From contig NZ_CP065972.1 of the NCBI RefSeq assembly GCF_016127015.1, forward strand, positions 2,344,592 through 2,408,591: a stretch of 64,000 nucleotides of DNA, in the 5' to 3' direction. The notes beneath the pieces are model-generated. The model had not been told where the DNA came from and did not search any database. It saw only the letters and a list, made by a program, of their open reading frames with translations. This document shows, piece after piece, positions 13,296-25,043 of the stretch (position 1 is its first letter; every line of letters starts with the position of its first letter). The translations under genes were made by a program, and so were the position numbers. The DNA comes from Corynebacterium tuberculostearicum. GTDB taxonomy: Bacteria > Actinomycetota > Actinomycetes > Mycobacteriales > Mycobacteriaceae.

Positions 13296-14504
13296 CTAGG
13301 CTGCTGCGGCCTCCCGGACTGTAGAGATGTCTCGGTAGAGCTCGCCGCTTCGCATCATGGCGAAGAGAACGTTTAGGCGTCGGCGTGCGAGTGCGACGAC
13401 TGCGGCGTTGTGTCTTTTGCCTTCTTTGCGTTTTCGTTCATAGAATTGCCGGGAACGCTCGTGGAATCTGATCGATGCAAAAGACGATTGCCATAGGGCG
13501 TTCTTTAATTTTTTGTTGCCAGCCCGGTTGGGCGAACTCGACATAATGGACGTTCCCGACTGATTCGTCCGCGGTGATAGGCCTGCATAGGACGCTAGGT
13601 GCGCTGCATCGGGGAAGTCGGACATATCGCCAGCAGTCATGAGGATCTGCGCCGCACTACGCGGGCCGATGCCGGGCATGGATAAAAGAATCTCGGTTTG
13701 AGGAATATCCTGAATGAGCTTAAGTACCTGCGCTTCGATTTCCTTGCGATTCTCTAATTTGGCCAATGCATCTTTGGCGGACATTGCTACGCCTAGTTCG
13801 GCGTATTCTGCGCCAGCAATGGACACGGTCTGTGCGTGGATGGCAGTAAGCATGGCATCGATGACAGGTTCAGGATTGCGCGCTTTGTGGCTGCGTGCAA
13901 AGGCTGCCAGGCGTGTTCTGCCGATGCGTCGAATCTTGGTGGGGCCACCGTATTTCGCAAGTAGGTGGAGAATCCACTTTCGGTGAATCATCTGTCCGCG
14001 CAGGACATGTTCGAAGGCAGGATAGGTTCCTACGAGCGCGGATCGCATCTGGTTAATCAGGCGTGTGTAGGCCCGAGCGAGGTCTTCGTCGATACCGTTG
14101 AGAACTTTCAACTGGATAAAGACTTCCTCAACGCGGTCGACGCTGCGCAGGGCGTCCGGAAGGTTAAGACCGGCATGGGCGATGACGTAGGCGTCGCGCA
14201 CATCAGTCTTGGAGTTGCCGACGTGGATGCGAGAGAGCTGCCGCATCGCAAGCCCGGGTAGATAGCGAACGTCTGCCCCCATGTCTTGGGCGACTGTGAC
14301 GGTTAAACGGCCGATGTTGTTGGGCTGATCGACAATGACAAGGACCGAAGCGTTGTCGGCGATGAATTGGCCGAAGAGCTTGCGTAATGAGCTTTCATGC
14401 TGGTTGATGCGTTTGGACAGGACTTGCCTGCCTTGAGGGTCGAGGACGCAGGCGTGGTGGAAGTATTTGCCGACGTCCACGCCAATGACGAAGTCATAGG
14501 CCAT
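13296..14504 (-). CDS. IS110-family transposase (DEDD type)
   Basis: A 402-residue protein. The N-terminal RuvC-like DEDD domain starts with GVDVGK (first Asp) and includes SKTDVRDAYVIA with two more acidic residues. The C-terminal domain contains the helix-hairpin-helix-like SMPGIGPRSAAQIL and the region SPNRAGNKKLKNAL with the conserved serine. Length and both domains are intact, so it could be active. IS110 recombinases are guided by a structured bridge RNA from the element's non-coding end, which here would be 14505-14755. Confidence 0.93.
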   Translation of the reverse strand: MAYDFVIGVDVGKYFHHACVLDPQGRQVLSKRINQHESSLRKLFGQFIADNASVLVIVDQPNNIGRLTVTVAQDMGADVRYLPGLAMRQLSRIHVGNSKTDVRDAYVIAHAGLNLPDALRSVDRVEEVFIQLKVLNGIDEDLARAYTRLINQMRSALVGTYPAFEHVLRGQMIHRKWILHLLAKYGGPTKIRRIGRTRLAAFARSHKARNPEPVIDAMLTAIHAQTVSIAGAEYAELGVAMSAKDALAKLENRKEIEAQVLKLIQDIPQTEILLSMPGIGPRSAAQILMTAGDMSDFPDAAHLASYAGLSPRTNQSGTSIMSSSPNRAGNKKLKNALWQSSFASIRFHERSRQFYERKRKEGKRHNAAVVALARRRLNVLFAMMRSGELYRDISTVREAAAA

Positions 14505-15495: not shown

Positions 15496-17046
15496 ATGAC
15501 CGATTTCACCGCTGATGACATCTTGAATAAGGGCCAGCGCCCCGCTGGCAAGGGAAATACCACCCGCCCCTCGGGCCAGCCGGTGCCGTCCGAGAACACC
15601 TCGGTAACCGCTGGCCAGCAGGGCCCAGTGGCGCTCAATGATGTCCACCTCATTGAAAAGCTCGCGCATTTTAACCGCGAGCGCGTGCCAGAGCGCACCC
15701 CGCACGCTAAGGGTCACGGTGCCTTTGGTGAGCTGCACATTACTGAAGACGTTTCTGCATATACCAAGGCTAAGGTCTTCCAAAAGGGCACCGTTACCCC
15801 GATGATGGGCCGCTTTTCCACTGTGGCCGGCGAGCAAGGCTCCCCGGATACCTGGCGCGATGTGCACGGCTTTGCTCTGCGCTTTTATACCGAAGATGGC
15901 AATCTCGACATCGTGGGCAATAACACCCCGGTCTTCTTTGTCCGCGATGGTCTGAAGTTCCCAGACTTCATTCACTCCCAGAAGCGCCTGGGCACCAATG
16001 GCCTGCGCGATGCCGATATGCAGTGGGATTTTTGGACCCGCAACCCAGAATCCGCCCACCAGGTCACCTACCTCATGGGCGATCGCGGTACCCCGAAGTC
16101 CACCCGCCACCAGAATGGCTATGGTTCCCACACCTTCCAGTGGGTTAATGAACAGGGCGAGGCCTTCTGGGTGAAGTACCACTTCAAGACCTGCCAGGGC
16201 GTAGAGAACTTCACCGATGAAGAGGCCACTACCACCGCCGGCCAGAACCCGGATTGCCACCGCGAGGATCTCTACAACGCTATCGAAGAGGGCAACTACC
16301 CCATCTGGGACGTCAAGGTGCAGATCATGCCGCTGGATGAGGCGGAGAATTACCGCTTTAACCCCTTCGACCTGACCAAGGTGTGGTCCAAGAAGGACTA
16401 TCCGCTGCACGATGTGGGCTACTTTGTGCTCAACCGCAACCCGCGCAACTTCTTCGCGCAGATTGAGCAGGTGGCGCTCGACCCGTCCAATATCGTGCCT
16501 GGCGTTGGCCTGTCTCCGGATAAGATGCTGCAGGCTCGCGTATTTGCTTACGCTGACCAGCAGCGTTACCGCATTGGCCCGAATTACCAGCAGCTGCCGG
16601 TCAACCAGCCGCAGAACGTGGACGAGGTCAATACCTACCAGCACGAGGGCAGCATGCAGTACCACTTCAATGCTCCGGAGGATCCGGTCTACTCGCCCAA
16701 CCGCTATGAGAAGGGTACGGGCGTGCTTGATGACGCCGCCGTAAACGACCGCTCCCAGCTCGAGACCACCACCGCGGCGGAGCTCTACATCAATCCGGAG
16801 TCCTACGGCAGCGACTTGGTGCGTGCGCCGTATGTTCGTCACGCTGAGGACGACGACTTTGTCCAGGCTCGCGACCTGTACGAGAATGTCTACGATGATG
16901 CCGCCAAGGAGCGCCTGGTCACCAATATCACCAACGCGATGGCCGGTGTATCCGAGGAGACCGAAGAACGCGTATACGAATACTGGACCAACGTGCACCC
17001 AGCACTGGGCCAGCGCGTGCGCGAGGTCTACGCCGAGAAGAAGTAG
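15496..17046 (+). CDS. katA: Monofunctional haem catalase
   Basis: A 516-residue clade-3-sized catalase that dismutates hydrogen peroxide. The catalytic histidine lies in RVPERTPHAKGHG, the catalytic asparagine in IVGNNTPVFFVRD, and the proximal tyrosine in RVFAYADQQRYRIGPNYQQLP. An ideal GGAGG precedes the ATG by 7 nt. The gene is divergent from sigC and is monocistronic with its own terminator. Confidence 0.97.
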   Translation: MTDFTADDILNKGQRPAGKGNTTRPSGQPVPSENTSVTAGQQGPVALNDVHLIEKLAHFNRERVPERTPHAKGHGAFGELHITEDVSAYTKAKVFQKGTVTPMMGRFSTVAGEQGSPDTWRDVHGFALRFYTEDGNLDIVGNNTPVFFVRDGLKFPDFIHSQKRLGTNGLRDADMQWDFWTRNPESAHQVTYLMGDRGTPKSTRHQNGYGSHTFQWVNEQGEAFWVKYHFKTCQGVENFTDEEATTTAGQNPDCHREDLYNAIEEGNYPIWDVKVQIMPLDEAENYRFNPFDLTKVWSKKDYPLHDVGYFVLNRNPRNFFAQIEQVALDPSNIVPGVGLSPDKMLQARVFAYADQQRYRIGPNYQQLPVNQPQNVDEVNTYQHEGSMQYHFNAPEDPVYSPNRYEKGTGVLDDAAVNDRSQLETTTAAELYINPESYGSDLVRAPYVRHAEDDDFVQARDLYENVYDDAAKERLVTNITNAMAGVSEETEERVYEYWTNVHPALGQRVREVYAEKK

Positions 17047-19273: not shown

Positions 19274-19370
19274 GTCTGAAAAAGCAGACCTAACAATAAA
19301 AAACATTGGTGGAAACTGGGAATTTTGGTGTCCGTTACCGTTTGTATTGAGCGAGTGCTACAGTTGGTCT

Positions 19371-19475
19371 TGCTCACAAAGCCTACTTAGGGGGTAGGCG
19401 AACGGTTTCTCCAATCCGTTGTGAGTGATAGGGAATAGGGACGACGCGGCGCTGTAGGGGCACCGCGTCGTTTCC
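19371..19475 (+). ncRNA. Candidate small RNA with three-way junction and intrinsic terminator
   Basis: A -10 box TACAGT (19359-19364), with TTACCG 18 nt upstream, predicts a start near 19371. The RNA would fold into an outer helix (CTCACAA 19373-19379 with TTGTGAG 19419-19425) that encloses two hairpins: GCCTAC 19381-19386 with GTAGGC 19394-19399, and ACGG 19402-19405 with CCGT 19416-19419. It ends in an intrinsic terminator with a 9-bp stem (ACGACGCGG 19441-19449, CCGCGTCGT 19463-19471) and TTT. There is no reading frame. Promoter, structure and terminator agree, but I cannot place it in a known RNA family. Confidence 0.6.
19441..19474 (+). terminator. Terminator of the candidate small RNA
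   Basis: ACGACGCGG and CCGCGTCGT form a 9-bp perfect stem around a 13-nt loop and are followed by TTTCCC. The nearest upstream gene ends 168 nt earlier, so the hairpin more likely ends a separate short transcript. Confidence 0.75.
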
Positions 19476-19944
19476 CATATGTGGGGTGCCTAGCTGCAAT
19501 TTTTGCGGAAAAATCCGTGTAATTCCTTGAATGCTTTTGCTGGGGCTTAAACGACAGAATGTGTTGTTTTGCGGTGTGTCGGGCTAAACGACATTTTGTG
19601 TTGGTGGGGGTTTAGCGTATGTAGCCTTTGCGTATTCCCATAGAGTGGTTGTAGGCAGTGTCGATGGCACTGTCGTAGGTTGCTGGTCGGCCGTCTTCGT
19701 GGCCGCTGGTGGCTTGTTTTTCCTGGTTGGCTAGGGTGTGTGCTTTGGCGAGTTGGTCCTGGCCCCAGTTTTGCTGCCTGGCGATCTCTATAGGGTCGTC
19801 AGGCAGTTGTGTGTGGAGGTATAGCCACCAGTCGCAGGCGATGCGCTGTTGTTCGTCGCGCAGTCCTCGGTGGGACCTGACCCCTGTTAGGTAGACACCT
19901 GATATCCAGCCCGGTTGGGTTGGGAAGAAAGGTAATCTACCACC

Positions 19945-20245
19945 ATGCCTAGGTACTCCGAACAGTTCAAACGTGATGCTGTGGCCCTCTACGAAAACAA
20001 TGAGGACCTTTCACTCCACGCGGCTTCAGCAGAGCTTGGAGTCAATCGTTCTTCACTTTATTCCTGGCTTAAGCAGTACGGCACCGGCAAACGTGCCCGC
20101 ACGAAGACCATGCGTGACAAGGCCCAAGCGACGACTGATTCTGAGCGAATCCGCCAGTGAGACAAGAGAAGTCTCGAAGCTGCGCGAAGAACGCGACATC
20201 CTGCGTAAGGCCGCGAAGTATTTTGCCGAAGAGACACGCTGGTAA
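19945..20245 (+). pseudogene. IS3 orfA (helix-turn-helix subunit), frameshifted
   Basis: The first frame, 19945-20160, encodes the helix-turn-helix part (SEQFKRDAVALYENNEDL, NRSSLYSWLKQYG) and stops after SERIRQ. The leucine-zipper-like continuation (EVSKLREERDILRKAAKYFAEE) is in the +1 frame and ends at 20245. Dropping one T near 20158 would fuse the two. This differs from the normal -1 frameshift between orfA and orfB, so orfA appears broken. Confidence 0.75.
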
Positions 20246-20295
20246 TCCGCTTCCAGTTTGTCTATGACCACCGAACCGAATACTCGGTTAAGCGG

Positions 20296-21138
20296 ATGTG
20301 CCACGTGTTAAAGCTCAATCGCTCCTCGTTCTACAAATGGGCCAACACTCGCGAAAAACGCAGGTTAAAGATGTGTTCTGATGCTCTTATTGGTGCACGA
20401 ATCAAGACCATCTTCGATGATGAGCACGGGCTTTATGGTGCTAAACGCATCGCTGCAAGTCTTAAAGCCGATACGGACTTTCCTCCGATCAATCACAAGA
20501 AGGTCGCACGCATTATGAAATCCATGGGGCTGAAAGGCTTTACCAAGCGCCGTCGATGTGTCACTACTAGGCGTAAGCCTGGCCACCGCGTCATGCCAGA
20601 TTTAGTAGGCCGCAGATTCACCGCTGATAAGCCGAACCAGGTCTATGTAGGCGACATCACCTACCTGCCGTGTAAGGGCGGCAAGAACATGTACCTGGCC
20701 ACGGTCATCGACGTCTACTCGCGCAAACTCGTCGGCCATGCACTAGCCGATCACATGCGGGTATCGCTGGTTATCGAAGCTTTGACTTATGCAAGGAAAG
20801 TCCGTGGAAGCCTTAAAGGGGTAATTTTCCATTCTGATCATGGCAGTGTGTATACCTCACAGGCTTTTAGGGACCACTGCGCCCAGCTTGGCGTGCGCCA
20901 ATCCATGGGCGCGGTGGGAACGAGTGCCGATAATGCCTTGGCAGAGTCATTTAACGCCACCTTAAAGCGTGAAGTCCTGCGAGATCGGAAAGTCTTTGAC
21001 AATCCCATTACCTGCCGCCAGGAAGTCTTTCGATGGTGCATGCGCTACAACACGCGCAGACGGCACTCTTGGTGCAACCTTCTAGCCCCCGATACCTTCG
21101 AAGCACTCACATCAGCTACACTGACCCAAGCAGCATAG
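20296..21138 (+). CDS. IS3-family transposase orfB (DDE integrase)
   Basis: 280 residues from the first ATG; the open frame extends about 60 nt further upstream (LVIRFQFVYDHRTEYSVKR), the usual orfB N-terminus reached by frameshifting. An HTH_21-type region is followed by the DDE core: YVGDITYLP (Asp), IFHSDHGSVYTS (Asp) and DNALAESFNATLKREV (Glu). The C-terminus MRYNTRRRHSWCNLLAPD is intact. orfB looks functional, but with orfA frameshifted the element may be immobile on its own. Confidence 0.9.
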   Translation: MCHVLKLNRSSFYKWANTREKRRLKMCSDALIGARIKTIFDDEHGLYGAKRIAASLKADTDFPPINHKKVARIMKSMGLKGFTKRRRCVTTRRKPGHRVMPDLVGRRFTADKPNQVYVGDITYLPCKGGKNMYLATVIDVYSRKLVGHALADHMRVSLVIEALTYARKVRGSLKGVIFHSDHGSVYTSQAFRDHCAQLGVRQSMGAVGTSADNALAESFNATLKREVLRDRKVFDNPITCRQEVFRWCMRYNTRRRHSWCNLLAPDTFEALTSATLTQAA

Positions 21139-22012
21139 CTAACCCCCGACGTGTCTACTTTCCGGGGGCCAGGCCCGTGGGTGTGCATGAGTTTCTTTAT
21201 TTGTGAGTTCACTCCGCCTTCTAGCTTGTTGGTCGTGCGTTCCAATCGTTGGTCTTGTTTAGCTTTGGTGAGGTAGGCAAAGAGGTGGCCTTGTTGGCTC
21301 ATTTTCTTTAGCTGCAGGTAGATTCCGCGGTGAGTGTAGTGGGTGTACCACCATTTTTTGTTCCGGCGTTTGGATTTTGGAATCTGGTCGAAGGGGACGT
21401 CTTTGACGTAGGTTCTGGCTTTGAGCTGGGTGCTAAATACGGTGCCGAACTGTTGTAGTTTTACGGTCCATTCGGCTGCTTTATCCAGGTTGTCAACGGC
21501 GAGTAGTTCAAAGGAAAGTCGTTGTAATGCTTTACCCATCGGCGAGGTGGGATGAAGACCGGTGGCGCGTTGGATATTGCGTTTGACGTGGACAATGCAG
21601 CGTTGAACCGGGGTATCAGGCCACAGGCAGTTTAGTGCTTTAAGCCCTCCGGCGTCGCCATCGCAGGTAACCAATTGTGGTGGGGCTAGCGGGTCGAGCA
21701 GGCGCATGTAGGACCAGGAGGATTCTTTCGTGCACCAGAACCAATTGATGACATGGCTGGAGTCGGCAGCCACAACAAGACATTTGGTGTTGAAGTAGGT
21801 GCCGTCGATGAAGATTTGGTCGTAGATTCGCTGCTTATCAACACTTCGGGGTGGTTGGATAAGCCAGAACGGTGTGAAGCGTCGTTGCAAAGTTCGCGTT
21901 GAAACACCGCAGGTTTTAGCGGTTTCTGCCAGGCTGTTGCTGGAGGTGAGCCAGGAAATGAAAAGGCGGAACCATTTGGCTTGCACGGCATCATTATTCA
22001 CGCGGGTGAAGG

Positions 22013-23453
22013 GAGAGTGTCCGATTCTTTGTGTGCGGGGGCTTGGTTTACAAGTAGTCCGCGAATCGGTTGGGGTAAGCCACGGCTAGTTGGTTGATGG
22101 CTTGTTTCCACCCGGTGGCTTTCGCTCCTTCAATATAGCCGTTGCACTCAACGTCGCGCTTTGCTTTCTTCGCTCGCTGCGCAGCGCGCTTGTCTTCGAT
22201 GTTGCAGATCATCAGCCAAAGCGTCTTCAGCGCTGCGGTATCGTTCGGGAACTGGCCCCGGTTACGGGTAGCTTTACGCAGTTCAGCATTCAGCGACTCG
22301 ATCGAATTGGTGGTGTAGAGCACCCGGCGTGCCGCCGGCGGAAACTGTAGAAACGGCACGAACCGCTCCCAGGCGTCGCGCCAGACTTTGACCGACTGCG
22401 GGTATTTCCGGCCCAGTTCACTGGCTTCGAACGCATCCAAGGCGGCACGTGCGGTGTCCTCGTTTGCGGCCGTGTAGACCTCACGCAGCGCCCGGGAGAC
22501 ACCTTTGCGGTCCTGATACGACACCCACCTGTTGGCCGCCCGAATCAGGTGCACGATACAGGTTTGCACCATGGAATTCGGCCAGGTTGCCTCCACGGCT
22601 TCCGGCAGGCCTTTGAGCCCGTCGCAGCACACGATGAACACGTCTTGGACACCGCGGTTGGCTAGATCCGCACACACCGATGCCCAGAATGCGGCGCCTT
22701 CATTGTCGGCGATCCACAATCCCAGGATGTGCTTGATGCCGTCCATATCGACACCAACCGCCATGTAGCAAGCCTTGTTGACCACGCGGTGGCCGTCACG
22801 GATCTTGACGCGCAGCGCGTCGAGGAAGATCACCGGGTAAAACTCGTCGAGCTGGCGGTTTTGCCAGATCATGACCTCGTCCAAGACCGCATCGGTAATG
22901 GTGCTGATCGTATCCGGACTCATATCCACCCCAAGCGTGGTTGCGAGATGGTGCTGAATATCGCGCACGGTCATCCCGCCGGCGTAGAGCGAGATAATCA
23001 TGTCGTCGAGCTCTGTGAGCCTGCGTGCACCCTTGGGCACCATGCGGGGAGTAAACGTGCCGGCACGATCCCTAGGCACGGTCACCTCAACTGCGCCGTA
23101 GCCAGAATTGACGGTCTTGGTGTACGACCCGTTACGGTGATTATTCTCCTGTGCGGTTTCGACCTGGGATTTCGCTTTGCGGTCGCAATGGCCGTAGCCC
23201 AAGTGCGCATCCATCTCCGCCTTAAGGCCAGCGTTGATCGATGCCTGTAGCAGGCCTTTGACCAGCTCGCTTGCATCATCAGCGGAGCTCGACAACTCGC
23301 TAATCAAGCTGGCGATTTCAGAATTTTCCATCAGCTTCTCGCTGATCTCGTTGACCCTCGCCGGGTCATGGTTCTTCTTCGGTGACACCGTAGTCATTAT
23401 CGGTGAAACTCCTTCTAGATCAGAGCCTCACACACAAACTTCCTGACACCCTC
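22013..23453 (-). mobile_element. IS256-family element inside the IS1249-like transposase
   Basis: A 1441-bp element with one transposase gene. The ends are inverted repeats beginning GAGAGTGTC and GAGGGTGTC, with further similarity (TTTGTGTG) inside both. The 8-bp direct repeat GGTGAAGG flanks it (22005-22012 and 23454-23461). Removing the element plus one repeat restores CKATFTRVNNDA in the host transposase. Confidence 0.93.
22048..23397 (-). CDS. IS256-family (Mutator type) transposase
   Basis: A 449-residue intact transposase. The DDE residues lie in PVIFLDALRVKIRD, VCCDGLKGLPEAV and TTNSIESLNAELRK. The N-terminal region contains the family's helix-rich DNA-binding part, and the CIVHLIR segment between the second Asp and the Glu is conserved. 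The frame is undamaged and both ends of the element are present, so it could still move. Confidence 0.95.
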   Translation of the reverse strand: MTTVSPKKNHDPARVNEISEKLMENSEIASLISELSSSADDASELVKGLLQASINAGLKAEMDAHLGYGHCDRKAKSQVETAQENNHRNGSYTKTVNSGYGAVEVTVPRDRAGTFTPRMVPKGARRLTELDDMIISLYAGGMTVRDIQHHLATTLGVDMSPDTISTITDAVLDEVMIWQNRQLDEFYPVIFLDALRVKIRDGHRVVNKACYMAVGVDMDGIKHILGLWIADNEGAAFWASVCADLANRGVQDVFIVCCDGLKGLPEAVEATWPNSMVQTCIVHLIRAANRWVSYQDRKGVSRALREVYTAANEDTARAALDAFEASELGRKYPQSVKVWRDAWERFVPFLQFPPAARRVLYTTNSIESLNAELRKATRNRGQFPNDTAALKTLWLMICNIEDKRAAQRAKKAKRDVECNGYIEGAKATGWKQAINQLAVAYPNRFADYL

Positions 23454-23736
23454 GGTGAAGGTGGCCTTGCAGGTGCGGCATCGCCATCGTTGGCGCCCAG
23501 CACTCGTTGTTCCGTGTTTGGTACATGCCCCGCCGCAGACGGCGCATCGAGGATGATTTTTACTCATCCCCTCATCGTGACCCTAGGTACCTAGCACACC
23601 GGCATGCCTTAGGCGGTATTTCATTATCGAAGCTGGAATATCCCTCCGAATAAGTGAAATAATCCTAATATCAACACGCCAAACCGACTAACCACACAAA
23701 CTCACCAACACATCCTGTCGTTTAGGCCTTTGCTGG

Positions 23737-24960: not shown

Positions 24961-24969
24961 CCATATCTG

Positions 24970-25043
<74 letters not shown>

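Follow-up and report, generated by a model that had tools for sequence, protein, structure and literature searches.

In the genome of Corynebacterium tuberculostearicum (contig NZ_CP065972.1), insertion sequences (IS) have accumulated one inside another. The stretch of 64,000 nucleotides analysed here (hereafter, the window) is the final 64 kb of a genome assembled as one contig (2,408,591 bases), has a G+C content of 61.6%, and contains a nest of approximately 4.2 kb in which an IS3-family element and an IS256-family element sit side by side, as siblings, within a single parent element of the IS1249 group (19544-23728). The best explanation is that the outer IS1249-group element landed first and that separate IS3 and IS256 insertions then entered its transposase gene (a probability of about 0.96). 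The nesting itself implies that the outer insertion preceded the inner ones, and no evidence contradicting three insertions was found. An earlier note on this DNA had claimed target duplications of 8 bp, GTG and 8 bp: the three pairs are indeed letter-perfect. The same note spoke of a three-layer nest, a description that has to be abandoned, since both inserts sit directly in the outer element and there are, hence, two layers. The coordinates of the features are collected in Table 1.

Table 1. Components of the insertion-sequence nest and borders of its landing site (positions within the window).
Feature	Position	Strand	Remarks
Outer duplication, left copy TTTGCTGG	19536-19543		exact with respect to the right copy
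Outer IS1249-group piece: transposase gene, 3' part; first terminal inverted repeat	19544-19872	-	96.4-96.7% identity to L015-L017
IS3 duplication GTG, copy 1	19870-19872		exact match; overlap on relatives
Inner IS3-family element, 1304 bp	19873-21176	+	orfA-like 19945-20160, frame change, orfB-like 20296-21138
IS3 duplication GTG, copy 2	21177-21179		exact match; overlap on relatives
Outer IS1249-group piece: middle of the transposase gene	21180-22012	-	96.4% identity to L015-L017
IS256 duplication GGTGAAGG, copy 1	22005-22012		exact match; overlap on relatives
Inner IS256-family element, 1441 bp	22013-23453	-	unbroken 449-aa transposase frame, 22048-23397
IS256 duplication GGTGAAGG, copy 2	23454-23461		exact match; overlap on relatives
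Outer IS1249-group piece: transposase gene, 5' part; second terminal inverted repeat	23462-23728	-	92.8-95.6% identity to L015-L017
Outer duplication, right copy TTTGCTGG	23729-23736		exact with respect to the left copy
RNA-like block with terminator-like hairpin, directly upstream of where the outer element landed	19354-19486	+	candidate small RNA
tRNA-Pro (CGG), bordering the variable interval on the right	24969-25043	-	

The family assignments of the earlier note stand, on the basis of NCBIfam and Pfam matches and, for the outer element, of an uncut relative. The IS1249 group belongs to the IS256-related elements, and IS1249 is associated with Tn5432 and pTP10. As cut, the outer transposase gene scores 270.6 bits against NF033544, under the cut-off of 300, whereas the uncut gene of its relative in Corynebacterium kefirresidentii SB (L015) reaches 406.1 bits, over that cut-off; the DNA identity between both elements is 95.6-96.7% across the three pieces. 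Other characteristics of the group are also present: a Mutator-type domain (Pfam), the 8-bp target duplication, and terminal inverted repeats (23 nt, 91% complementary). In any case, IS1249 itself (C. striatum plasmid record NC_004939.1) is only 43.4% identical to the L015 transposase and, in consequence, the outer element is another member of the IS1249 group, not IS1249. Its middle piece had no DNA match among 72,556 plasmid records. The two inner elements are assigned as follows: (i) the IS3-family element shows the orfA/orfB layout in two frames, the Pfam domains HTH_Tnp_1 and rve, an NF033516 score of 278.6 bits (cut-off 160), and a 3-bp duplication; and (ii) the IS256-family element scores 396.8 bits against NF033543 (cut-off 150), has an 8-bp duplication and inverted repeats at its ends (read by eye), and does not differ notably from its family.

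The proof of the insertions comes from uninterrupted relatives, on which the three outer pieces were placed separately, with no insert removed in silico. On L015, L016 and L017 (L016 and L017 occupy a common insertion site, which leaves two independent copies), adjacent pieces have exactly 3 and 8 bases in common, which points to target duplication and not to chance. The uninterrupted transposase predicted by the earlier note does exist in relatives, where it runs straight through both insertion points. Regarding the open frame of 400 codons also announced there, it holds in a weaker, piecewise form: compared with the 399-aa gene of L015, 403 outer codons (codons inside the duplications being counted twice) contain no internal stop, with 16 synonymous and 20 non-synonymous changes. 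Furthermore, the search for an empty site in other strains, proposed in that note, was successful: an unoccupied TTTGCTGG site is found in four related genomes (G051, G004, G092 and G108), where the two flanks overlap by 8 bases. In another genome (G235) the flanks of the window are nearly adjacent too, but the exact TTTGCTGG 8-mer was not found there. The closest named relative found for the locus is C. kefirresidentii SB, with 87-92% identity over the flanks.

From these data, a simple course of events can be proposed. An IS1249-group element would have transposed into the gap between an RNA-like block with its terminator, on the left, and a convergent tRNA-Pro, on the right, duplicating TTTGCTGG at a place that we infer to be harmless. 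Separate IS3-family and IS256-family elements would then have entered its transposase gene, in either order, leaving duplications of 3 bp and 8 bp, respectively, which are the lengths observed in relatives. As its transposase gene is cut by these inserts, the outer element is no longer autonomous.

Both inner elements have other copies in the same genome. Between the IS256 copy in the nest and two mutually identical sister copies there are 6 differences over 1441 bases (a further copy is found at 98%), and matches at 1e-150 occur in 79 of 242 genomes of the genus; the nested copy has an unbroken transposase frame and may still be mobile. The IS3 copy has 94% identity to the sole other complete copy found in this genome, and its orfA (19945-20245) differs from the usual layout of the family by an in-frame UGA plus a frame change. 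Decay private to the window copy is ruled out as the cause, since the same allele occurs at 14 places (the window included) in 9 of the 242 genomes, six of these places being in G084. The copies that carry it are 80-96% identical to the window copy; the orfB-like frame is about 300 aa long in the window, G232, four G084 copies and G240, short in G063 and G152, and shortened in G058. The allele is, then, old and mobile, and the element may possess a recoding site or a split orfA.

Nests of this kind are not restricted to the window. IS1249-like matches at 1e-40 are present in 31 of the 242 genomes (at most two candidates per genome were scored, so that copy counts are lower bounds), and the transposase gene of five IS1249-like copies, including that of the window, holds inner inserts. 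IS3 or IS256 inserts were thus found in IS1249-like elements of four other genomes: (i) G092, with an IS256-family insert (73% to that of the window) and a 1305-bp insert, IS3-like by eye, at other positions in the element and at another locus; (ii) G108, with a 7.7-kb insert (L084 2894-10571) lying between two direct IS3-family copies of 77.6% mutual identity, whose cargo comprises a MATE-like transporter gene and iron-uptake-like ABC genes (family matches below curated cut-offs), and which stands beside the same RNA-like block as the nest of the window; (iii) G004, interrupted by an IS3-like element; and (iv) G104, with an IS3 insert of the window type (82%, N run inside). By coordinates, the G104 element lies inside a copy of a short derivative of IS1249, an arrangement that would amount to three true layers. 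For the G104 IS3, an additional layer was ruled out, as the apparent 2.6-kb insert includes the N run. Uninterrupted copies were found in L015, L016/L017, G231 (seven, counted by paired end matches, of which five were checked over their full length), G011 (two) and G191, and the matches in G235, G030 and G225 break at contig ends. Insertions into IS3 elements were also observed by coordinates: an IS256-family element inside an IS3 (G106:C1:1918632-1921372, L181) and a 1.3-kb insert inside another (G108:C1:373614-376226).

As for the age of the nest, the earlier note regarded the events as recent. This is sustained in part: by the IS256 insert, which is set apart from its sister copies by 6 of 1441 bases, but not decisively by the IS3 insert, at 94% identity to the other copy. 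Two observations weigh against a recent origin: (i) the end pieces of the outer gene show 9 non-synonymous and 2 synonymous codon changes with respect to L015 (11 and 14, respectively, in the middle piece); and (ii) the IS3 copy has diverged by 6% from the other complete copy in the genome. The strain is known from one assembly. Repeats of 1.3-1.4 kb, such as those in the nest, are typical misassembly points and, with a single assembly representing the genome, the nest could be conceived as an artefact of collapsed repeats. Such an artefact is, however, extremely improbable: the genome is in one contig, all three elements have exact duplications of the length typical of their family, and the sister copies can be told apart (6 of 1441 bases for IS256, about 6% for IS3). 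It is likewise very unlikely, although somewhat easier to imagine, that the nest arrived ready-made as a unit instead of being built in place. IS256 copies of different genomes do have common immediate flanks (L152-L158, L002-L004), as if carried within another element, so that nested units may travel whole. But the two inner insertion points of the window appear in none of the interrupted IS1249-like copies examined, and in the other double insert, that of G092, the points differ, the IS256 element is a 73% relative, and the IS3 insert gave no blastn match to the IS3 of the window. Three insertions in place thus remain the best explanation of the nest.

It might also be thought that the sites were not hit by accident, that is, that the interval between the catalase and tRNA-Pro genes is a preferred target of IS1249-like elements, and the IS1249 transposase gene a preferred target of IS3 and IS256. 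The earlier note had already seen here a repeat landing site, and recurrence across species does speak for that idea. Three other genomes carry an IS1249-like element in the interval: G108, at 38 bp from the site of the window and with its own duplication CAATTTTT; C. kefirresidentii (L015), at about 2 kb, with duplication TCGCTCGT; and G011, approximately 118 bp from tRNA-Pro on the opposite strand, with duplication ACGAAATG. In all, 3 of the 19 IS1249-like copies tallied outside the window lie in it, giving a binomial tail of 8e-6 if the interval is 0.2% of the genome. The five transposase genes with inner inserts point in the same direction, as does an older IS1249 relic (68%) in this genome (G000:C1:1478280-1478612; L010, L011), which abuts an IS3 left end (80%) at its first base. 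Nevertheless, the interval was picked post hoc and the hot-spot statistics are weak: the tail rises to 0.006 if a tenth of the genome tolerates insertions, and to 0.046 at the same share with 40 copies. Besides, the true number of copies is at least 19 (in G231 there are seven, and its interval contains none of them), the interval falls on two contigs in G073 and has its borders far apart in G191, and no common motif was apparent by eye in twelve 8-bp duplications of IS1249-like copies. In flank controls with one fragment per site, transposase-type domains appeared at 4 of 10 IS256 sites (two of these through HTH_38 alone), at 1 of 10 sites of the window-type IS3, and at 0 of 10 IS1249 sites, the latter being mostly short fragments of little power. 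These controls covered 10 of 17 IS256, 10 of 14 IS3 and 10 of 10 IS1249 loci, with 9 loci of the short derivative outside the scan. Target preference is, on balance, doubtful; tolerance explains most landings in the interval. Other insertions there are of different kinds: G231 has a different insert, of IS3 type by eye, and in G235 (L127 6576-17160) the tRNA-Pro end is repeated as a 48-base copy some 10.5 kb away from tRNA-Pro, which, together with an integrase-like frame (by eye), suggests an island at this tRNA gene.

The short derivatives of IS1249, of about 527 bp, keep both ends of the element and lack most of the transposase gene. They were found in this genome (G000, C1:1115688-1116210) and in G005, G218, G224 and G104. 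Eleven copies were examined. An 8-bp duplication can be read in 8 of them, and 1 is flanked by an N run on one side; L235 has no duplication, and L118 has lost one end. The six full copies of G104 (L213, L219, L225, L229, L231 and L233) do not differ from one another, and the duplications of five of them are distinct. Being short, present in several copies with distinct duplications, provided with both parental ends and devoid of a full transposase gene, the derivative can be classified as a miniature inverted-repeat transposable element (MITE). As is general for MITEs derived from insertion sequences, it preserves the element ends and the duplication length of its parent; it differs by a scar in its interior, a stretch of about 32 nt that matches the right end of an IS3 (copy L117, G005). 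In a test with single-letter shuffles, limited to the G005 copy, the best match of this interior to the whole G104 IS3 was the right end (score 30, reached by 0 of 2000 shuffles), and the score of 23 against the right end of the IS3 in the window was reached by 5 of 2000; for three control ends (two of them left ends, the third from another IS3), the scores were reached by 140 to 1899 of 2000 shuffles. Because the interior keeps this stretch, the MITE seems to descend from an old IS3-in-IS1249 nest, which, in the simplest reading, would have been deleted down and then mobilised in trans. Among the literature titles listed, which do not prove absence, none was on this MITE or on the nest of the window.

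The RNA-like block to the left of the nest deserves separate mention. It consists of a three-helix core and a terminator-like hairpin that ends 72 bases before the outer element; block and hairpin point right and tRNA-Pro points left, the gap between them being convergent. A covariance model built on 24 of the 28 sequences first aligned matches 45 of the 242 genomes; no Rfam match was found at E<=1. In a 35-pair consensus over 21 distinct sequences, 99.7% of cells are paired, and four consensus pairs have both of their bases changed, in one sequence each, against a shuffled mean of 0.2; there was no excess of further pair types, whose count was reached by 481 of 500 shuffles. The block is a candidate small RNA. 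Small RNAs of C. glutamicum have been described (PMC4046766) in a publication that, at least in its main text, does not mention katA.

Elsewhere in the window, an IS110-family transposase gene (13296-14504, minus strand) lies 5 kb from the nest. The NCBIfam scan comprised 30 window proteins, that is, 29 of 55 listed frames and the catalase-like frame 15496-17046, and among the matches listed for them no resistance family reached its cut-off.

As an event, the nest is ordinary. It is, at the same time, a clean textbook case: every footprint can still be read and the empty site has been located, so that the nest lends itself to ordering and dating insertions. Moderate interest comes from the MITE and from the repeated occurrence of such nests in other species. 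There is an even chance that IS1249-like elements are recurrent landing pads for IS3 and IS256 elements in this genus, and that deletion has cut down at least one IS3-in-IS1249 nest to a MITE of about 527 bp that has since moved and bears an IS3 birth mark. If this wider pattern holds, the genus would offer a natural series that starts with uninterrupted elements, continues with elements holding one or two inserts and ends with a small non-autonomous one, and in which the route from nest to MITE would be directly testable; nests would in that case give rise to new mobile elements besides leading to the death of old ones.

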